Positions 27,731-57,890 of a stretch of DNA of 64,000 nucleotides are shown here, piece by piece (the first letter of the stretch is position 1; each line of letters opens with the position of its first letter). The notes under the pieces are model-generated. The model made no database searches, was not told the DNA's origin, and was given only the letters and a program-made list of their open reading frames with translations. The position numbers and the translations under genes were made by a program. The stretch covers positions 186,001 through 250,000 of the forward strand of contig NZ_AXDW01000010.1 in assembly GCF_000474945.1 (NCBI RefSeq), in the 5' to 3' direction. Origin of the DNA: Solimonas soli DSM 21787. Its GTDB lineage: Bacteria > Pseudomonadota > Gammaproteobacteria > Nevskiales > Nevskiaceae.

Positions 27731-29163
27731 GCGCCGTGCTGCAGAACCTGATGATGGCGCCGATGCGCCGCGTGCGCCGCATTCACATGCTCGGCATCGG
27801 CGGTTCCGGCATGGCCGGCATCGCCGAGGTGCTGATCAATCTCGGCTACCAGGTCAGCGGCACCGATCTCAAGGACAGCGCCGCGACGCGGCGCCTGCGC
27901 GAGCTCGGCGCGACCATCCATCTCGGCCATAGGGCCGAGAACGCGCACGGCGCCGACGCGATCGTCGTGTCGACGGCGGTCAAGGCCGACAATCCGGAAG
28001 TCGTCTACGCGCACGCGCAGCGCATTCCGGTCGTGCGCCGCGCCGAGATGCTCGCCGAGCTGATGCGCTTCCGCTACGGCATCGCCATCGCCGGCACGCA
28101 CGGCAAGACGACGACGACCAGCCTCGTCGCCAGCGTGCTCGCCGAAGGCGGGCTCGATCCGACCTACGTGATCGGCGGCAAGCTGAAGTCCGCCGATACC
28201 AACGCGCGGCTCGGCCTCGGCCATTACCTCGTCGCCGAGGCCGACGAGAGCGACGCCTCGTTCCTGCACCTGTCGCCGATGATCGCGACAGTGACGAACA
28301 TCGACGCCGATCATCTCGAAACCTACGCGCACGACTTCAGGAAGCTGCGCGCCACCTTCGTCGAGTTCCTGCATCGCCTGCCGTTCTATGGCCTGGCGAT
28401 CGTCTGCATCGACGATCCGGTGGTGCGCGAGATCCTCAACGACATCGGCCGTCCGGTGCTGACCTACGGCTTTCGCGACGACGCCGACCTGCGTGCGTTC
28501 GACGTGCGGCCGGAGGGCAGCGGCGCGCATTTCACGGTCGTCTTCCCCGACGGCGGGCGCGAGGAATTCCATCTGAACCTGCCGGGCCAGCACAACGTGC
28601 AGAACGCGCTGATCGCGATCGCCATCGGCCGTGAACTCGGCGTGTCGGTCGAGGCGACGCGGCGCGCGCTGTCGCACTTCGGCGGCGTCGGCCGGCGCTG
28701 CGAACCGCACGGCGAGCTGAAGCTCGCCGACGGCGGCCGCGCCCTGCTGGTCGACGACTACGGGCATCATCCGCGCGAGATCGCCGCGACCTTCCAGGCG
28801 ATGCGCGCCGCGCACCCGCAGCGGCGCCTGGTCGTCGCCTTCCAGCCGCACCGCTATTCGCGCACGCGCGATCTGTTCGAGGACTTCGCGGCGATTCTCT
28901 CGCAGGCCGACGCGCTGCTGCTCGCCGAGGTCTATGCCGCCGGCGAGGCGCCGATCGAAGGCGCCGACGGTCGTGCGCTGGCGCGCGCGATCCGCGCGCG
29001 CGGCAAGGTCGAACCGGTGTTCGTGAGCGGCGTCGCCGAGCTGCCGGAGGCGCTGATGCGCGTGCTGCGCGACGGCGATCTGCTGCTGACCATGGGCGCC
29101 GGCGACATCGGCGGCCTGCCGGCGCAGCTGGTGCAGCAGTACGGCGCCGGAGGCCGGCCATGA
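27727..29163 (+). CDS. murC: UDP-N-acetylmuramate--L-alanine ligase
   Basis: MurC adds L-alanine to UDP-MurNAc, the first amino-acid step. The 478-residue product has '[23 protein letters not shown]' at the start, the ATP loop '[18 protein letters not shown]' near residue 120, '[14 protein letters not shown]' and '[15 protein letters not shown]'. It overlaps both murG and murB by four bases, so murG-murC-murB read as one tightly coupled block. Confidence 0.98.
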
Positions 29164-30074
29164 CCGCCGCCGTGACGAGCGCCGCGCAGAACGTCGAACT
29201 GCGCAATGAACCGATGGCGCGGCACACCTCGTGGCGCGTCGGCGGTCCGGCCGACCGCTACTTCGAGCCGGCGTCGCGCGCAGCCTTGTCGGCCTTCGTG
29301 CGCAGCCTGCCGGCGCAGGAGCCGATCCTGTGGATCGGTCTTGGCAGCAATCTGCTGGTGCGCGACGGCGGCCTGCGCGGCACGGTGATCGGCCTGCACG
29401 GCGCGCTCGACGCGCTGGCCGCCGACGGCGCGACGATCACCGCCGAGGCCGGCGTGCACTGCGCGCGGCTCGCCAAGTTCGCCGTCGGCAGGAAACTTGC
29501 CGGCGCCGGCTTCTTCGCCGGCATTCCCGGCACGGTCGGCGGCGCGCTGGCGATGAACGCCGGTGCGCACGGCGGCGAGACCTGGGACGTCGTCAGCGAA
29601 GTCGAGATCATGCGTCGCGACGGCAGCACGGCCTGGCTGCCGAAAAGCGCGTTCCGCCATGCCTACCGCCATGTCGAAATGCCGGCCGACATGGTCGGCT
29701 TCGTCGCCGCGCGTTTCGTCTTCGAGGCCGACGCCGACGGCAAGGCCGAGGCCGACATGAAGGCCTGGCTGGCGCGGCGCAAGGCGACGCAGCCGGTCGG
29801 CCGTCCGACCGCCGGCAGCACCTTCCGCAATCCACCCGGCGATCACGCCGCGCGCCTGATAGAGAGCTGCGGCCTCAAGGGCCATCGCCTCGGCGGTGCC
29901 GAAGTGTCGACCTTGCACGCGAATTTCATCGTCACCGACGAGACCGCGCGCGCCGCCGACGTCGAACAGCTGATCGCGCACATCCAGGACACTGTTTTTG
30001 CGAAGACCGGCGTCCGGCTCGAACCGGAAGTGCGCGTCGTCGGAGACGCGCTGGAAAAAGGAGTGATGCCATGA
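29160..30074 (+). CDS. murB: UDP-N-acetylenolpyruvoylglucosamine reductase
   Basis: MurB uses NADPH and FAD to reduce enolpyruvyl-UDP-GlcNAc to UDP-MurNAc. The 304-residue product looks like the shorter type II enzyme. FAD-binding parts are '[19 protein letters not shown]', '[17 protein letters not shown]' and '[23 protein letters not shown]'; the catalytic segment is '[26 protein letters not shown]' with the active Ser. After its stop the dcw block is interrupted by the repeat described at 30097-30449. Confidence 0.97.
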
Positions 30075-30096
30075 ATGGCATCACTTCCCAGCGCGT

Positions 30097-30247
30097 GCCC
30101 GGCCAGGGATGGCCGGGCCGGGGATCAATGGGGAGCTGCCGTCGCGCCAGGGATGGCTGCGCCAGGCTGCGGGAGGCGCCGCGCGTGGCTAGGAAGACCA
30201 ACGATCCCAAGGATTTCGGCCGGGTCGCCGTGCTGGCGGGCGGCTGG
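30097..30247 (+). repeat. Direct repeat copy 1: element end plus truncated ddlB start
   Basis: This 151-bp unit is identical to 30299-30449 except for one base (30124 against 30326). It contains a GGCCA-GGGA-TGGCC hairpin with an 8-bp stem (30098-30117), a second GCCAGGGATGGC core (30146-30157), a ribosome site and the first 21 codons of ddlB. It ends exactly where a GTGAGC sequence begins. Confidence 0.95.
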
Positions 30248-30394
30248 GTGAGCGGCCGCGCTTGCGAAGTGCCGGTGGCACTTCGCGCGGACGCGAACGC
30301 CCGGCCAGGGATGGCCGGGCCGGGGGTCAATGGGGAGCTGCCGTCGCGCCAGGGATGGCTGCGCCAGGCTGCGGGAGGCGCCGCGCGTGGCTAG
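30185..30394 (+). pseudogene. Truncated duplicate of the ddlB 5' end, read as a 69-codon leader frame
   Basis: The GTG at 30185 has the same upstream region as the real ddlB start. It encodes the same first 21 residues as ddlB (VARKTNDPKDF to LAGGW), then continues through the spacer hairpin and the second repeat. It stops with TAG at 30392-30394, overlapping the true ddlB start region (30387). If translated it would behave as an upstream frame coupled to ddlB. Confidence 0.7.
30248..30298 (+). repeat. Spacer with GTGAGC and a perfect 10-bp hairpin
   Basis: The 51 bases between the two direct repeats start GTGAGC, contain a perfect 10-bp stem with a 3-base loop (30264-30273 pairs with 30277-30286) and end GCGAAC. 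The same order of parts occurs on the minus strand before mtnC (57755-57858). Confidence 0.85.
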
Positions 30395-30449
30395 GAAGAC
30401 CAACGATCCCAAGGATTTCGGCCGGGTCGCCGTGCTGGCGGGCGGCTGG
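30299..30449 (+). repeat. Direct repeat copy 2: element end plus intact ddlB start
   Basis: Second copy of the 151-bp unit, with the hairpin at 30300-30319 and the second core at 30348-30359. It runs into the intact ddlB gene, whose first 21 codons are inside the repeat. Confidence 0.95.
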
Positions 30450-31352
30450 AGCAGCGAGCGTCAGGTCGCGCTGTGGAGCGGCGAAGGCATCCACAAGGCG
30501 CTGCTCGACAAGGGCGTCGATGCGACGCTGATCGACGCGACGCCCGAGCGCGTGCTGAACCTCAAGCACGAAGGCTATGACCGCGTCTTCAACATCCTGC
30601 ACGGCACCGGCGGCGAAGACGGCACGGTGCAGGCGGCGCTCGAGCTGCAGGGCATTCCGTACACCGGCAGCGGCGTGCTCGCCTCGGCGCTGGCGATGGA
30701 CAAGCTGCGCACCAAGCGTCTGTGGAAGGCCGAAGGGCTGCCGACGCCGGACTGGCTGTGGATCGAGAGCGAACGCGATCTCGACGAGGCGGCGCGCCGC
30801 TTCGGCTTGCCGCTGATGATCAAGCCGTCGGAAGAAGGCTCCAGCGTCGGCGTCAGCAAAGTGAAGTCGGCCGATCAGCTGTACCCGGCCTGGCAGCTGG
30901 CGCGCGGCGACCGGCAGCGTGTCGTCATGGCCGAGCGCTTCATCGGCGGCGGCCGGCACGGCCACGAATTCACCTGCGCGATCCTCAACGGCGAAGCCCT
31001 GCCGACGATCCGCATCGAGCCGGACGGCGAGTTCTACGACTACCAGGCCAAGTATCTCTCCGACAACACGCGCTACCACTGCCCGAGCGGCCTCGACGCC
31101 ACGCTCGAGCGCGAGATCCAGGCGATCTGCCTGCGCGCTTTCGAGATTCTGGGCGCGCGCGCCTGGGGCCGTGTCGACTTCATGCTCGATGGCGACGACC
31201 GTCCGTGGCTGATCGAAGCGAACCTCGTGCCGGGCATGACCTCGCACAGCCTCGTGCCGATGGCGGCCAAGGCGCGCGGCATCGACTACGCCTCGCTGTG
31301 CTGGGCGATTCTCGAAGACACCCTCAGCGGTGCGGCGGAGGGCGGCGGATGA
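30387..31352 (+). CDS. ddlB: D-alanine--D-alanine ligase B
   Basis: DdlB joins two D-alanines using ATP, supplying MurF. The 321-residue ATP-grasp enzyme shows 'VAVLAGGWSSERQVALWSGEGI' at the start, 'FNILHGTGGEDGTVQAALELQGIPYTGSG', 'KPSEEGSSVGVSKV' and 'WLIEANLVPGMTSHSLVP'. The GTG at 30387 follows GGGAGG; an ATG 19 codons upstream lies inside the repeat and is rejected. The 5' end is duplicated at 30185. Its stop overlaps an ATG at 31349 that was probably the ancestral ftsQ start. Confidence 0.96.
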   Translation: MARKTNDPKDFGRVAVLAGGWSSERQVALWSGEGIHKALLDKGVDATLIDATPERVLNLKHEGYDRVFNILHGTGGEDGTVQAALELQGIPYTGSGVLASALAMDKLRTKRLWKAEGLPTPDWLWIESERDLDEAARRFGLPLMIKPSEEGSSVGVSKVKSADQLYPAWQLARGDRQRVVMAERFIGGGRHGHEFTCAILNGEALPTIRIEPDGEFYDYQAKYLSDNTRYHCPSGLDATLEREIQAICLRAFEILGARAWGRVDFMLDGDDRPWLIEANLVPGMTSHSLVPMAAKARGIDYASLCWAILEDTLSGAAEGGG

Positions 31353-31358
31353 CCGCGC

Positions 31359-31632
31359 TGGGAGCTGCCTATGCCATGGACATCGCTGTGCTGCCGTTTG
31401 GCAAGTCGCCAGGCAAGGCGCGGGACCCGCACTTGGGTGATTCCCGAGAAACGGCCCGCAGCGCGGCATGGCGGCTTGCCAAAAAACGGCATCCCAAAGG
31501 GGCCGGACCGTTTTGGCCCATCGCGGCGTCACTCGTCGCTTGCGCGCGTTCGAGTGCGCGGCGCTCCTCGTTTCTGGCGCTGGGCCAAAACGGCCTCGGC
31601 CACAGCGATGCCCATGGCACAGGCAGCTCCCA
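31359..31632. repeat. 274-bp element with 32-bp terminal inverted repeats, inserted at the ftsQ start
   Basis: The ends 31359-31390 and 31601-31632 are inverted copies with 30 of 32 bases matching. Inside are two further hairpin arms: about 31393-31410 with 31471-31490, and a perfect 13-bp pair 31508-31520 with 31581-31593, giving a branched fold. It is flanked by ATGACCGC (31349-31356) and ATGACGGC (31634-31641), a likely imperfect target duplication. It contains no stop in the ftsQ frame. It encodes nothing recognisable, so it looks like a MITE-type element. Confidence 0.85.
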
Positions 31633-31633
31633 C

Positions 31634-32401
31634 ATGACGGCCGACGACCTGCTCGACTTCGATTCCACGCCGCTGCGCCGGCACCTGCTGCTGGCGATCG
31701 GCATCGCCGCCTTCGCGGCGGTGCTCGCCGCCGGCTGGGGCGCACTCGAATTCGGCAGCCGCGAGCCGGTCGCGCGCATCCAGGTCGAGGGCCGCTTCAC
31801 GCGCCTCAAGCTCGCCGATGTCGACGCCGCCGTGCGGCCGCTGGTCGATCGCCGTTTCGGCGAGCTCGACCTCGGCGCCGTGCGCGCCGCGGTCGAGGCC
31901 TTGCCGTGGACCTCGCGCGCCAGCGTCGAGCGCGTGTGGCCGGCGACCGTGCGCGTGCGCGCCTGGGAGCGCGTGCCGTTCGCACGCTGGGGCGACGACG
32001 CCTTGCTCGATACCGAGGCGCGCGCCTTCACGCCGCCGGCGGCCGAGATTCCCGAAGGCCTGCCGCAGCTCGCCGGCACCGCCGGACACGAGGCGCTGGT
32101 CGCCGACATGTTCCGCGCCCTCAGCGCGCGGCTGATCCAGTCCTCGTTCCCGCTGCAGGGCCTCACGCAGGACGCGCGCGGCGAATGGAACGCGCACACC
32201 GCGAACGGCGTCGAGCTGCGCTTCGGTCGCGAGGATCCGCAGGACAAGCTCGAGGTGCTGCTCGGCCCGGCCGAGCACGCGCTGAAGGACCGCATGGCCG
32301 ACGTGCAATACATCGACCTGCGCTACACGAACGGATTTTCCGTCGGTTGGCGCACGTCGCCGAAACCTGAATCGAAGAGCGAACCGAGGGAGGGCCACTG
32401 A
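31634..32401 (+). CDS. ftsQ: Cell division protein FtsQ
   Basis: FtsQ is a bitopic inner-membrane protein that holds FtsB and FtsL at the septum. The 255-residue product from ATG 31634 has a cytoplasmic tail, one membrane helix (about residues 18-40), a POTRA domain ('VARIQVEGRFTRLKLADVDAAV') and the beta domain with 'SVERVWPATVRVRAWERVPFARW'. An in-frame ATG at 31349, overlapping the ddlB stop, would add 95 residues encoded by the inserted repeat. I prefer 31634 because the extension is repeat DNA, although no Shine-Dalgarno sequence is visible before it. The stop is one base before ftsA. Confidence 0.92.
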   Translation: MTADDLLDFDSTPLRRHLLLAIGIAAFAAVLAAGWGALEFGSREPVARIQVEGRFTRLKLADVDAAVRPLVDRRFGELDLGAVRAAVEALPWTSRASVERVWPATVRVRAWERVPFARWGDDALLDTEARAFTPPAAEIPEGLPQLAGTAGHEALVADMFRALSARLIQSSFPLQGLTQDARGEWNAHTANGVELRFGREDPQDKLEVLLGPAEHALKDRMADVQYIDLRYTNGFSVGWRTSPKPESKSEPREGH

Positions 32402-33631
32402 ATGGCACGCCGCGAAGAGCGCAACCTGCTGGTCGGCATCGACATCGGCACCGCGAAATGCGTGGCCGTGGTCGGCCAGCAGATGCCGGAAGGTCACATC
32501 GAAATCGTCGGCTACGGCGAGGCGCCGTCGCGCGGCATGAACCGCGGCGATGTCGTCAACATCGAGCACACGACGCAGGCGATCAAGCGCGCCGTCGAGA
32601 ACGCCGAGCACATGGCGAACTGTCGCGCGCAGTCGGTGTTCGTCGGCATCTCCGGCACGCACATCCGCAGCCTGAACTCGGCGGGCGTCGCGCCGGTGCG
32701 GGCCGGCAGCGTGTCGGAGCGCGACGTCGACAACGTCATGGACGCGGCGCGCGCGATCGCGATTCCGGCCGACCAGAAGATCCTGCACGTGATCCCGCAG
32801 GAGTTCGTCGTCGATGGCCGCGAGGGCATCCACGATCCGGTCGGCATGCACGGCGTGCGGCTCGAGGCCAAGGTGCACATCGTCACCGGCTCGATCTCGG
32901 CGGCGCAGAACATCTACAAGTGCGTCGAGAGCTGCGGCCTCAAGGTCGACAAGCTGATCCTGCAGCACCTCGCGTCGAGCTACGCGACGCTGCTGCCGGA
33001 CGAGCGCGATCTCGGGGTCTGCATGGTCGACATCGGCGGCGGCACCTCGGACATCGCCGTGTTCCGCGGCGGCACGATCCGCCATACCGCCGTGCTGCCG
33101 ATCGCCGGCAACCAGGTCACCAACGACATCAGCGTCGCCTTCCGCACGCCGGCGCCGTACGCCGAAGAACTGAAGGTGCACTACGGCGTGGCGCTGCCGC
33201 AGTTCGCCGCCGCGCACGAGGAGATCGAGGTGAAAGGCGTCGGCGACGCGCCGTCGCGGCGCCTGTCGCGCCTGACGCTGGCCGAGGTCATCAAGCCGCG
33301 CTACGAGGAACTGTTCCGCTTCATCCGCAAGGAGCTGCACCGCTCGGACTGGTACGAGCTGGTCGCCGGCGGCGTGGTGCTGACCGGCGGCGCGGTGCAG
33401 ATGCCGGGCGTCGTCGAGCTCGCCGAGGAGGTATTCGAGCTGCCGGTGCGGCTCGGCCTGCCGCACGAGGTGCAGGGCATCAAGGACGTGGTGCGCAACC
33501 CGGCCTGCGCGACGGCGGTCGGCCTGCTCATGTACGGGCGCCAGAACGCGCCGCAGGTCGCCGCGGTGCCGACGCAGGGCGTCGGCCACTGGCTGGCGCG
33601 CGTCAACGAATGGATCAAGGGCAGTTTCTGA
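32402..33631 (+). CDS. ftsA: Cell division protein FtsA
   Basis: FtsA is an actin-like ATPase that tethers FtsZ to the membrane. The 409-residue product shows 'LLVGIDIGTAKCVAVVG', 'MVDIGGGTSDIAVFRGG', 'GGVVLTGGAVQMPGV' and an amphipathic C-terminal helix 'LARVNEWIKGSF', the membrane-targeting end. It directly follows ftsQ and is separated from ftsZ by a 222-base region holding a strong promoter. Confidence 0.97.
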   Translation: MARREERNLLVGIDIGTAKCVAVVGQQMPEGHIEIVGYGEAPSRGMNRGDVVNIEHTTQAIKRAVENAEHMANCRAQSVFVGISGTHIRSLNSAGVAPVRAGSVSERDVDNVMDAARAIAIPADQKILHVIPQEFVVDGREGIHDPVGMHGVRLEAKVHIVTGSISAAQNIYKCVESCGLKVDKLILQHLASSYATLLPDERDLGVCMVDIGGGTSDIAVFRGGTIRHTAVLPIAGNQVTNDISVAFRTPAPYAEELKVHYGVALPQFAAAHEEIEVKGVGDAPSRRLSRLTLAEVIKPRYEELFRFIRKELHRSDWYELVAGGVVLTGGAVQMPGVVELAEEVFELPVRLGLPHEVQGIKDVVRNPACATAVGLLMYGRQNAPQVAAVPTQGVGHWLARVNEWIKGSF

Positions 33632-55071: not shown

Positions 55072-55598
55072 TGGACGATGCGCGCCTCGCCGCCCTGCAC
55101 GCCGGGCTGGGTATCACGGCCGCGATGCTCGCCGAACGCCGCCTGCGGCCGCACGCCGAGGCGCGGCGCCTGCAAGCCGTCGGTCTCGGCAGCGACGGCC
55201 GCGACAAGCTGCTGCTGCCGGCTGCGGCGCGCGCCTGGCTGGCGATGCGCGATGCCGCTGCCGCCGACGGCGTCGCGCTGCATCTGATCTCCGCCTTCCG
55301 CAGCGTGGAGTTTCAGGCCGCGCTGATTCGCAACAAGCTCGCCAAGGGCCAGGCGATCGCCGATGTGCTGCGCGTCAATGCACCGCCCGGTTACAGCGAG
55401 CACCACAGCGGCCGCGCGGTCGACATCGGCGATGCGATCACGCCGGCGCTCGATGCAGCGTTTGAAGCGACGCCGGCCTTCGCCTGGCTCGCCGCGCGGG
55501 CCTCGCGTTACGGCTTCCGCCTGTCATATCCGCGCGGCAATGCCGAGGGATATCGGTACGAGCCTTGGCACTGGTGCTGGCATCGCGGCGCGGCGTAG
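55071..55598 (+). CDS. D-alanyl-D-alanine carboxypeptidase, VanY-like (M15B)
   Basis: A 175-residue zinc peptidase. The M15 motifs are clear: 'LISAFRSVEFQAALIRNKL' (S-x-F/Y-R-S), zinc site 'GYSEHHSGRAVDIGD' (S-x-H-x-x-G-x-A-x-D) and 'YEPWHWCW' (E-x-x-H). It has no signal peptide or membrane anchor in the chosen frame, so either it acts in the cytoplasm or the N-terminus is not as predicted. The ATG overlaps the cysQ stop by one base. It could trim peptidoglycan peptides; it does not by itself indicate vancomycin resistance. Confidence 0.88.
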
Positions 55599-55742
55599 CC
55601 GTCCATGGCGCGACCTCCCTCTTGATCTGGCCCCGGCCCGGCATTTCGTCCACTTCGCCATGACATCGAGTCATGCCTCAGCGGCGCGAAAGGCTCCCGG
55701 GCCGGGCATTCGCCGACGCCGCGCGTGACCTCGAGTCATGCC
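55598..55742 (-). repeat. Degenerate tandem palindromic repeat at the acyltransferase 3' end
   Basis: Two blocks of 47 bases (55631-55677 and 55696-55742) share their ends: both start with a CCC(C/G)GGCC(C/G)GGCATT core and end in a GTCAT palindrome TCGAGTCATGCC, while the middles differ. A GCCGTCCATGGC at 55598-55609 resembles the second core of the mtnC element (57767-57778). The last codons of the acyltransferase lie inside the second block. Confidence 0.6.
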
Positions 55743-56967
55743 CGAAACGTGTCGGCTCAGCCCTGGCGCTGCCGCCGGCATCGCCGGTCGCGCCTTGCAG
55801 CCGGCGCCTGAGGCGCGCCGCCGGCTTCTCGACGCAGTAGTAGCCGAACGCGCCGCAGGCGACCGCCGCGACGAGGTTGTACGGCCAGCTGTGCAGGGCC
55901 GACGCGGCGCGATACGCGTCGGCCGGACCGAGGAACAGCTGCTGCCAGAGGTAGAGGCTGTATGAAATGCGGCCCAGCCACAGCAGCGGCGGCACGGCGA
56001 GCGCGCGACGCAGGCAGCCGTCGGGCAGCGCGATCTCGGCAACGACGAGCAGGGACGTGACCGGGATCAGCAGTGCGTAGAGCGGCAGCCAGCTGAGATG
56101 ATCGTCGAGATCGCGACCGCGCAGCCAGGCGACGACGAGCGCGGTGACGACGAGGCCGCCGAGCACGAGTCCGCGGCGCGGCACGCGAATCCAGGCCGCG
56201 AGCCAGGCCGGGCGCCGCGGCGCGTGCAGCGCCATCGCCAGCAAGCAGCCGGCGGCCAGATGCGGCAGGTACGGCAGGACGTTCTGCAGGGGCTTCAGGT
56301 AGCCGACCGTCAAGGGCGTGAGCAGCACGCTGCCGAGCACCAGCACGGCGAGCAGGGTCGTCACCCGCGCGGGCGAGAGGGCGAGCGCGAAGACCAGCGG
56401 CCACAGGAGATAGAACTGCTCTTCGAGCGACAGACTCCAGATATGGCCGAAGAACCAGTCGCCCGGCAGGAGCGTGGTGTTCTTGGTCAGCGTCAGGGCG
56501 CCGAAGAATGAAGGCCACGACCACGTCACGAGTCCGGCCGCGGCGGCGATCGCGATGCCGAGCGCGGCGGCGGCGAACGGCGGCACGATGCGCAGCGCGC
56601 GTCGCAGCCAGAAGGCGCGCAGATCGACGCGGCCGCTGCGCTCGCGCTCGCGCAGCAGCAGCCAGGTGATGATGAAGCCGCTGATCGTGAAGAACAGCTC
56701 GACGCCGACGATGCCCATTTCGCCGAGCGGGCGGATCAGCGCCGGCGCATTCGCCGTGTGTGCGCCGTGGCCGAACAGCACGATGCCGATCGACACCGCG
56801 CGCAGGCCGTCGAGGGCATCAATGCGGCCTTGCGGCACGGCGGCGGGCGCGCCGCCGCTGCGCGCATCGTTGGCCGCCGCACCGAAGCGTGGGGCCGGGG
56901 AGCACCGCGCGGGCGCGGCTTCGGGTGCGCGGCGCAGGCTCGCGCGCAGGGCAGGTTTCGCGTCCAT
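55678..56967 (-). CDS. Acyltransferase 3 family membrane protein (OafA/YrhL-like)
   Basis: A 429-residue protein with about ten membrane helices that should acylate a sugar of LPS, peptidoglycan or another envelope glycan. Family features are 'IDALDGLRAVSIGIVLFGHG' with the catalytic His, 'VELFFTISGFIITWLLLRE', 'SFFGALTLTKN' and 'WSLSLEEQFYLLWPLVFA'. The N-terminal 45 residues are Ala/Arg-rich and poorly conserved. The C-terminal 20 or so residues ('GHDSRSRAASANARPGSLSRR') are encoded by repeat DNA, so the original stop may have been displaced. Confidence 0.92.
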   Translation of the reverse strand: MDAKPALRASLRRAPEAAPARCSPAPRFGAAANDARSGGAPAAVPQGRIDALDGLRAVSIGIVLFGHGAHTANAPALIRPLGEMGIVGVELFFTISGFIITWLLLRERERSGRVDLRAFWLRRALRIVPPFAAAALGIAIAAAAGLVTWSWPSFFGALTLTKNTTLLPGDWFFGHIWSLSLEEQFYLLWPLVFALALSPARVTTLLAVLVLGSVLLTPLTVGYLKPLQNVLPYLPHLAAGCLLAMALHAPRRPAWLAAWIRVPRRGLVLGGLVVTALVVAWLRGRDLDDHLSWLPLYALLIPVTSLLVVAEIALPDGCLRRALAVPPLLWLGRISYSLYLWQQLFLGPADAYRAASALHSWPYNLVAAVACGAFGYYCVEKPAARLRRRLQGATGDAGGSARAEPTRFGHDSRSRAASANARPGSLSRR

Positions 56968-57079: not shown

Positions 57080-57754
57080 TCAGAACTTCACGTCGGCGAA
57101 GTCGCGCGCCTGCGGATGCGCGGGCGCAGGCTGCGCCTTCGCATCGCGAAGCAGCTGGCAGGTGGCGAGGCCGGCCTCGCGCGCGGCGTCGAGCTCGGCA
57201 CCGACATCGGAGAGGAACAGCACCTCGCGACCGGCGAGACCGATCTCGCGCAGGATCGCGCGATACGACGCGGCCTCGCGCTTGGCGCCGATGCGCGTGT
57301 CGAAGTAGCCGGAGAACAGCGGCGTCAGATCGCCGTAGGCGGTGTGGCCGAAGATCAGGCGCTGCGCCTCGACGGAGCCGGAGGAATAGACGTAGAGCGC
57401 CTTGCCCGCGGCGTGCCAGCGCTTCAGGTATTCCGGCGTGTCGGCGTAGACGTGGCCCTGCAGCTCGCCGTTCTCGTAGCCGACTTTCCAGATCAGGCCC
57501 TGCAGGGTCTTCAGCGGCGTCAGCTTGCGGTCCTCGGCGATCCATTGATCGAGCACGTCGGCGGCTTCGTCGATCGACAGGTCGCGGCCGACGATCTGTT
57601 CGACGTCGTCGAGCAGGTGCTGGACGCGGTCGTCACCGGCCTGCTCGCGCAGGAAGGCACGCAGGCGCTGCTTCGCGTACGGAAACAGCGTCTCGTGGAC
57701 GAAATCGATCGAGGAGGTGGTGCCCTCGATATCGGTGACGATGGCTTTGATCAT
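57080..57754 (-). CDS. mtnC: Enolase-phosphatase E1
   Basis: MtnC enolises and dephosphorylates 2,3-diketo-5-methylthiopentyl 1-phosphate in the methionine salvage pathway. The HAD protein of 224 residues begins 'MIKAIVTDIEGTTSSIDFVHETLFPYA' with nucleophile Asp in D-I-E-G-T-T, and has 'YVYSSGSVEAQRLIFGHT' and 'LFLSDVGAELDAAREAGL'. An ATG two codons earlier (57760) is possible, but AGGA is correctly spaced for 57754 and the duplicated start downstream of mtnD also begins 'MIKAI'. It follows mtnD after a repeat of about 145 bases. Confidence 0.96.
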   Translation of the reverse strand: MIKAIVTDIEGTTSSIDFVHETLFPYAKQRLRAFLREQAGDDRVQHLLDDVEQIVGRDLSIDEAADVLDQWIAEDRKLTPLKTLQGLIWKVGYENGELQGHVYADTPEYLKRWHAAGKALYVYSSGSVEAQRLIFGHTAYGDLTPLFSGYFDTRIGAKREAASYRAILREIGLAGREVLFLSDVGAELDAAREAGLATCQLLRDAKAQPAPAHPQARDFADVKF

Positions 57755-57858
57755 TTTCATTCCTGAGCCGTCCCTGGCGCGGTGTCCGGCCAGGCCATCC
57801 CTGGCCTGGCGTTCGCCGGGACGAATGTCCGCCGGACATTCGTCGATGCCCGGCTCAC
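57755..57858 (-). repeat. Palindromic element inserted between mtnD and mtnC
   Basis: Read on the minus strand the 104 bases start GTGAGC, then have a perfect 10-bp stem with 3-base loop (57821-57843), GCGAAC, an 8-bp GGCCA-GGGA-TGGCC hairpin (57790-57809) and a GCCAGGGACGGC core (57767-57778). This is the same order and stem sizes as at ddlB. Confidence 0.9.
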
Positions 57859-57890
57859 CCCTCGATGTCGGTGACGATGGCCTTGATCAT
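57855..57890 (-). pseudogene. Truncated duplicate of the mtnC 5' end
   Basis: The 32 bases 57859-57890 match the intact mtnC start 57723-57754 at 30 positions. They encode MIKAIVTDIEG and then stop at once with the TGA formed by the GTGAGC of the repeat. The fragment lies nine bases after the mtnD stop, where an intact mtnC would be expected. Confidence 0.85.

Follow-up and report, generated by a model that had tools for sequence, protein, structure and literature searches.

YPAL, also called RU-2, is a 168-bp element of Yersinia that is not AT-rich and contains internal inverted repeats. In the excerpts of the paper drawn on here, it shows target duplications of variable length (3-26 bp) and an open frame with in-frame fusions (PMC2229807). 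GTAG and CGTC REPs, together with REPINs, are units of 20-40 bp whose hairpins carry an unpaired end tag and which occur in many copies and in clusters. In the excerpted text, CGTC repeats have no associated transposase, and the word "duplication" is absent from the main text of that paper (PMC3733652). Rickettsia palindromic elements (RPE), according to excerpts of two sources, insert in frame within protein genes (PMC2229807, PMC10969869). Long direct repeats of variable length, from 8 to 514 bp, are made by the insertion sequences IS1549 and IS1634, and no mechanism had been proposed for them by 2008 in the part of the review drawn on (PMC2266710).

Compared by description only, and with excerpted accounts, YPAL is nearest in kind to the element that we describe here, sharing both internal inverted repeats and a variable target duplication, yet its duplications of 3-26 bp are set against 28-114 nt in our clean cases. 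The GG target, the three hairpins, the duplication of whole gene ends, and the tandem arrays belong to the present element and are absent from the YPAL description as excerpted (PMC2229807). With the GTAG and CGTC REPs, as far as the excerpts describe them, our element has in common the tagged-hairpin design, the many copies, and the clusters; it differs in its 115-bp length, three ordered hairpins, and long flank duplications. A copy in frame inside purT recalls the RPE as excerpted, but this was the one in-frame internal case noticed, and many other copies lie at gene borders. IS1549 and IS1634 have a DDE transposase and terminal repeats, whereas the present element is without both.

A further likeness is to the integrative elements of tRNA and tmRNA genes, in which a matching fragment carried on the element makes the entered gene whole again. 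Restoration of the entered gene is shared, but the copies described here track the sequence of the host itself, being alike within genomes and differing between them. In the literature searched, which included few subscription papers, we recognised no description of the present element or of gene-end duplication by a palindromic repeat. The combination of a GTGAG end, a GG target, a one-sided duplication of 28-114 nt, and spared genes, RNAs, and riboswitch was likewise unseen in that literature.

Form, copies, and spread of the element

Reading of the loci in the window (the whole 64,000-nt stretch of DNA that was analysed) and alignment of further copies gave a GC-rich, three-hairpin element of ~115-120 bp with GTGAG as its usual 5' end. 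A long, variable hairpin 1 is followed by CGCCCGGCCAGGGATGGCCGGGC and then by GCGCCAGGGAYGGC. An earlier note on this DNA had set the length at about 100 bp; the measured value is neither that nor the 72 nt of positions 30248-30319, which cover hairpins 1 and 2 on the 5' side of the second element at ddlB. Across 13 aligned copies, 13 of 19 base pairs had changes on both sides, so the hairpin pairing has been kept despite sequence change. Paired cells made up 92.2% of the hairpin alignment vs. 77.8% after shuffling, the structure being taken from the same alignment. No terminal inverted repeats were found: the ends, GTGAGCC and GGAYGGC, read as non-complementary, and the inverted repeats are internal. 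Rfam gave no matches up to E 1 in window positions 29000-33000, which hold the ddlB copies only.

The 4.19-Mb draft genome containing the window (G000) had 27 matches to our covariance model, R1, at E<1e-3, bearing out the earlier claim of a repeat family. Four of these matches lie within the window at three loci, namely ddlB (twice), mtnC, and 55594-55760. The sequence profile missed the four weakest covariance-model loci (L091-L093 and L095). In the same genome, CCAGGGATGG occurred 24 times, about half of these by eye in other sequence, vs. once for the reversed control pattern.

Element matches were present in 7 of 11 genus genomes, a set that includes Solimonas aquatica, S. flava, and Sinimarinibacterium flocculans. 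Among the matches listed, G010 had the most of the genus genomes, with at least 38. Of 114 genomes sampled from the class (gammaproteobacteria), 14 also had matches, each belonging to a different family. GTGAG was found at the start of 56/154 genus copies and 70/137 copies of a wider set described below. A long form of the element was seen at L110, L088, L084, L159, and L063, where a nested palindrome of ~55 nt (GCGTTT...AAACGC) extends hairpin 2. In G121, a complete genome from a distant family, five loci (L355, L357, L358, L361, and L362) held overlapping pairs of matches on opposite strands with alike flanks, which may be a larger composite palindrome.

The ddlB and mtnC loci

The features at ddlB in the window, all on the + strand, are as follows.

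30046..30161, + strand, first (upstream) element copy at ddlB (R1, E 1.0e-17)
30097..30254, + strand, left half of a 158-bp direct repeat, 97% identical to 30299-30456 at a spacing of 202
30185..30247, + strand, 63-bp truncated ddlB start, ending in GGCTGG and abutting the element; identical to 30387-30449 and also seen in the flank tests
30248..30363, + strand, second element copy, beginning with GTGAG, hairpins 1-3 (R1, E 7.8e-18)
30330..31352, + strand, ddlB open frame, D-Ala-D-Ala ligase (Pfam PF07478, 2.5e-50)
30373..30378, + strand, GGGAGG, read directly, a likely ribosome-binding site between the element and the ddlB start
30387..30449, + strand, right copy, the first 63 bp of ddlB from GTG, by sequence identity and with GTG as the probable start

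The observation that first drew attention to 30248-30319, a repeat preceded by a truncated copy of a gene start, was real: the truncated ddlB copy matches the gene start at 63/63 bp, and the two mtnC start copies agree at 30/32 bp. Of the duplication sizes given previously, 32 bp at mtnC stood, and 151 bp at ddlB is replaced by the 158-bp repeat. Since G000 carries two tandem elements, the latter takes in hairpins 2-3 in addition to the gene start. Hairpin 1 of the upstream copy (30046-30161) is unlike hairpin 1 of the second copy (30248-30363).

Two sister genomes, G006 and G007, have a simpler ddlB form consisting of gene-start copy, one element, and gene. In these two as well as in G004 and G023, the left ddlB copy retains the junction with murB, so what was added at ddlB is the element plus a second gene start. 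The last residues of murB in these four genomes are as in element-free genomes. G000 is unlike its relatives in that the end of murB runs into the first element sequence (window 30033-30074). Past the end of ddlB, window positions 31359-31632 hold a different element of ~270 bp with an open frame and 32-nt terminal inverted repeats that are 94% complementary; a second copy of it was absent among the loci examined.

The remaining two loci in the window are on the - strand.

57859..57890, - strand, 32-bp truncated mtnC start, two differences from 57723-57754
57763..57858, - strand, element copy at mtnC (R1, E 2.4e-13)
57723..57754, - strand, right copy, the first 32 bp of mtnC from ATGATC (repeat and flank comparison)
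57080..57760, - strand, mtnC open frame, acireductone synthase (TIGR01691, 1.1e-80)
55594..55760, - strand, third element locus, long form with extended hairpin 2 (R1, E 3.2e-9)

At 55594-55760, flank duplication was not above chance (score 27). At mtnC, across eight genomes, the left and right copies were alike at 29.9 of 32 positions on average within genomes, whereas between genomes the figures were 27.0/32 for left-right and 28.0/32 for right-right pairs. Since many genomes have an element at this site, the likeness points to homogenisation or repeated insertion rather than to simple age. For that reason, the identity of the copies cannot be used as a sign of recent insertion.

Flank duplications compared with chance

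Aligning the copies with their flanks, a check that the earlier note had proposed, revealed that flank duplication exceeds chance. A flank-to-flank direct repeat with a score of at least 45 was present at 40/151 genus copies vs. 0/1116 random positions in the same DNA, the 40 including tandem-array copies where the match can be the neighbouring unit or an unmasked arm of hairpin 1. At a score of at least 35, the counts were 44/151 and 3/1116. The 151 copies, with usable flanks, come from seven genomes and represent most of, rather than every, match listed. Among 3736 cross-site control pairs, some of them orthologous, scores ran as high as 146, and 41/151 copies lay above the 99.5th percentile of these controls; the random-position control is the fairer one.

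A wider set, which overlaps the genus set and consists of 134 copies in 105 stretches picked out of a genome collection by a pattern search, gave scores of at least 45 at 20 copies vs. 2/1370 random positions. Six of these 20 are Solimonas records or L249, a metagenome-assembled genome (MAG) with an L108-like stretch, and eight more look like tandem arrays. Seven wider-set sites were clean (L258, L293, L252, L247, L317, L283, and L294) and mostly new, L293 being the ddlB site of G023. The record of L249, titled Porticoccaceae MAG, shares an aligned 68-base stretch with the Sinimarinibacterium locus L108, and its contig is perhaps misassigned.

Boundaries were read from a cleaner genus subset of 20 copies (score of at least 35) at 18 loci, three of them ddlB and three mtnC, among the 46 copies with a complete 5' end. 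The left copy stopped exactly at the 5' end of the element in 19 of these 20 copies (18 loci). The right copy began 0-67 nt past the 3' end in clean cases, and 138 nt past it at one tandem site; this 3' boundary of the duplication was often blurred. Counted as gap plus matched length, the duplication spanned 28-114 nt in clean cases, with 177 at one tandem site left out. Such lengths exceed those of ordinary transposon target duplications, as had been claimed. No duplication accompanied 24 of the 46 complete-5'-end copies; the 22 counted as having one are the 20 above plus L102 (score 28) and L193 (score 32), added by eye. Duplications other than at tRNA sites were few in G121.

What is duplicated and which copy stays whole

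The view that the element copies gene starts proved too narrow, as it is the ends of genes and RNAs that are duplicated, not gene starts as such. Duplicated gene starts include those of ddlB, mtnC, and mutL (identified by NCBIfam or Pfam), with mtnC also duplicated in Stenotrophomonas sp. MMGLT7, and that of a phosphoglycolate-phosphatase-like gene in a Hydrocarboniphaga MAG, whose model match falls below curated cut-offs. Others, named by eye, were mnmG, a metallo-hydrolase-like gene, a SelT-like gene, and purA in a Lysobacteraceae MAG. Gene 3' ends were duplicated in NAD synthase and pterin dehydratase (model matches) and, by eye, in leuS, a response regulator, and typA, the last at two different points in two genomes. 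Among RNAs, a glycine riboswitch is duplicated at one orthologous locus in 5/5 genomes, where the right copy scores 61-68 bits and the left 34-40 bits. A tmRNA is also duplicated, its right copy being complete, and a whole tmRNA or tRNA lies to the right of the element at L294, L302, L270, L349, L363, L359, L354, and L368. The tRNA copies are cut in or near what we take to be the D-arm.

At sites judged singly, the polarity was such that the right copy continues into the whole gene or RNA and the left copy is truncated. L126 is an exception, in which the duplicated stretch takes in the right gene's end together with the left gene's start, and both genes are whole. The tRNA-like copies at L176, L193, and L364 had no complete tRNA next to them, and at L176, the repeat seems by eye to extend beyond the modelled 5' end of the element. 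These four sites are at odds with a simple picture.

Duplication starting exactly at start codons was a candidate that weakened on inspection: the stretch that precedes the start codon also shows partial likeness from copy to copy. It looks as if this preceding sequence decays faster between copies.

Sites with and without the element

To compare occupied and empty sites, we searched 41 genomes per gene and compared 30 loci each for ddlB and mtnC. The duplication was present at 5/30 ddlB loci, and all five had the element, four by profile and one by eye (the diverged element of G004, which the profile missed). At mtnC, 11 loci had the element; the duplication was detected at 10 by score, above the largest cross-genome control, and at the eleventh, in G019, by eye. 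According to the earlier note, gene-start duplications that pre-date the element or are independent of it would speak against its claim. This result was absent: the duplication was seen at 0/25 ddlB loci and 0/19 mtnC loci without the element. Two of these 19, in G002 and G003, had no profile match but seem to hold element remnants.

A single event inherited everywhere was rejected for the typA, mtnC, and ddlB groups, as insertion points differ between some lineages. Different entry points in one gene were seen for typA (G000 and G010), mtnC (Solimonas and Stenotrophomonas), and ddlB (MAG REEB218). However, 26 of 78 loci were common to two or more genomes, and much of the present distribution is thus inherited. 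Because of these shared loci and the apparent remnants at two mtnC loci, many insertions must be old. From the copies and the empty sites between genomes, we infer that the element is mobile.

Target site, copies without duplication, and tandem arrays

GG precedes GTGAG in 47/56 genus copies and 66/70 wider copies, against a background in which GG makes up 8-9% of dinucleotides. Where GTGAG occurs elsewhere in the same loci, GG stands before it in 44/161 (genus) and 120/542 (wider) cases. The right copy has GG too, so the GG is part of the target. The element thus lies directly 3' of its target GG, and the duplication extends leftwards over the near gene end.

Copies without duplication differ in their surroundings. 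The frame closed by the element's TGA is open for 390 nt or more upstream in 19/24 copies without duplication vs. 2/22 with, a threshold that was set after seeing the values, and none of the other five frames is longer in only 9/24. These copies fit entry of the element close to the 3' end of a gene lying upstream, a position at which a duplication would not be needed. At L072 (G000:C8:50065-50184), the element lies in frame inside purT and adds ~40 residues (TIGR01142, 2.8e-170 in two stretches), with no target duplication detected. A long duplication is therefore not obligatory, given the 24/46 copies without one and the purT copy without any.

Tandem arrays of the element plus its duplicated stretch were also seen. 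Units made of a tRNA 5' part and the element were repeated seven times in G059 and three times in G051, with a complete tRNA after each array. The G059 array (L349, 600-1760), which has seven units of ~145 nt and then a complete tRNA-Met, is a possible source of tRNA-half transcripts. Tandem copies at ddlB in G000 and mutL in G010 were alike in hairpins 2-3 and unlike in hairpin 1.

Leader frames

Built-in leader frames, also claimed previously, were supported at part of the sites. The leader frame, which reads onward from the truncated gene start, ended on the downstream start codon, with an overlap of 4 or 8 nt, at 12/24 gene-start sites, vs. 5/48 in the other two frames. At 10/24 sites, it reached a stop within the opening bases of the element or slightly beyond them. 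Because the sites are partly related and three start codons were chosen by script from several options, the Fisher p of 0.0004 for the start-codon overlap is too small. The 24 sites, nine of mtnC and five of ddlB, are a part of those known; left out were mtnC of G000 (motif not found), ddlB of G006, mtnC of G007 and G022, L143, and L145. Three different ddlB element sequences (G006/G007, G004, and G023) all end the leader frame on the start codon. Judged from sequence, these results support leader frames that are built in at some sites.

How the duplications may arise

We favour polar, one-ended insertion by a putative mobilising enzyme, with template switching as the main rival. At a probability of roughly two in three, the repeat would be a small, non-autonomous insertion element that makes a polar, one-sided target duplication, whose survivors are those in which the entered gene is whole, and which is later subject to recombination. 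The 5' end of the element would join first, at a specific site after GG. The other end would then rejoin the target at a variable point upstream, so that the stretch between is duplicated. Insertions within a gene would survive only when the duplicated stretch reaches past the gene's near end, and since only gene-sparing insertions survive, the survivors would look as if gene ends had been purposely copied. One-sidedness could stem from a bias towards short distances between the specific left junction and a loose right one, together with selection that keeps insertions leaving the gene whole. Arrays of the element plus gene fragment would arise, expand, and contract through unequal recombination of one direct copy with the other; this process would also keep the copies alike and remove the element cleanly. 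At some protein genes, a leader frame running through the element and stopping at the intact gene's start codon may have allowed translational coupling to be retained.

Replication template switching without a dedicated enzyme, a form of which the earlier note had raised, strikes us as unlikely, if far from negligible. A hairpin would stall replication, the nascent strand would jump to an element copy at GG microhomology, copy it, and return upstream of its point of departure, and the element would be a passive fold-back sequence rather than a transposon. Variable duplication length, one-sidedness, the adjoining of GG to the 5' G, and the tandem copies at ddlB (G000) and mutL (G010) that share hairpins 2-3 and differ in hairpin 1 all agree with this process, as does the finding that none of three enzyme families (Y1, IS1634-type, and reverse transcriptase) tracks the element in the 11 genus genomes. 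However, the recurrent GTGAG end and the 84-94% preference for GG look like enzyme specificity, and the class-wide spread suggests a mobile element.

Movement by any of these three families has a much poorer claim. IS200/REP chemistry, with its tagged hairpins and its insertion on the 3' side of a short motif, resembles what is seen here, and there is a slim chance that a RAYT (Y1 transposase) moves the element in the manner of a REP, the duplications coming from aberrant joining of the second end. Y1 (PF01797) matches do occur in relatives, with six in G001, three in G008, and one each in G003, G005, G006, and G007. Yet the search for a RAYT gene elsewhere in the genome, as had been proposed, gave 0 matches in G000, and G010, with at least 38 element copies, also had none, so the REP/RAYT-like part of the earlier proposal was not borne out. 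Moreover, G003 has a Y1 match and no element match, and at 10 of 13 Y1 loci examined, there was no neighbouring copy beyond chance (one match, E 3.4). Nor is the element a palindrome of 20-40 bp tagged GTAG or CGTC. As PF01797 presence does not follow copy number in the 11 genus genomes, a RAYT was rejected as mobiliser.

A retroposon using target-primed reverse transcription, a slightly fainter prospect, would account for variable target duplications, a folded element, and targets that are transcribed genes. Known target-primed insertion, however, has its specific junction at the end opposite to the 5' end that is specific here, and among present hosts, RVT_1 (PF00078) occurs in 3/11 genus genomes and in only 2/7 element carriers. 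Reverse transcriptase was rejected as mobiliser since PF00078 does not track the element. A miniature of a DDE insertion sequence appears every bit as improbable as the retroposon. The bacterial precedents reported in the excerpted review for long variable duplications, IS1549 and IS1634 at 8-514 bp, are of this type (PMC2266710), but terminal inverted repeats were not seen in our element, and the IS1634 model NF033559 matched 1/11 genus genomes, below its cut-off, against the element's 7/11. The short, fixed-length target duplication of a DDE-mobilised MITE does not correspond to 28-114 nt in clean cases or none detected. An IS1634-type transposase does not track the element and was likewise rejected as mobiliser.

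Returning to polar insertion, we tentatively suggest, as a reading somewhat less likely than not, that the element represents an undescribed class of polar mobile elements. In this class, the 5' end would join after GG and the 3' end would rejoin tens of nucleotides upstream, duplicating the end of the entered gene by means of a putative enzyme. Essential genes, tRNAs, tmRNA, and a riboswitch would thereby be left whole, and tandem arrays and coupled, translated leaders would follow.

Significance

These results pose the question of which enzyme or replication process lies behind long, one-sided target duplications. IS1549 and IS1634 pose a similar question, for which the 2008 review, in the part drawn on, gives no model (PMC2266710). 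They also carry a warning for annotation, as gene starts at element sites are easily miscalled. For the genomes that carry it, the element can repeatedly supply duplicated gene fragments and new leader sequences, and it provides a natural origin for coupled leader peptides and for second copies of riboswitch aptamers and tRNA 5' parts. A small element can, in this way, repeatedly enter essential genes without breaking them.
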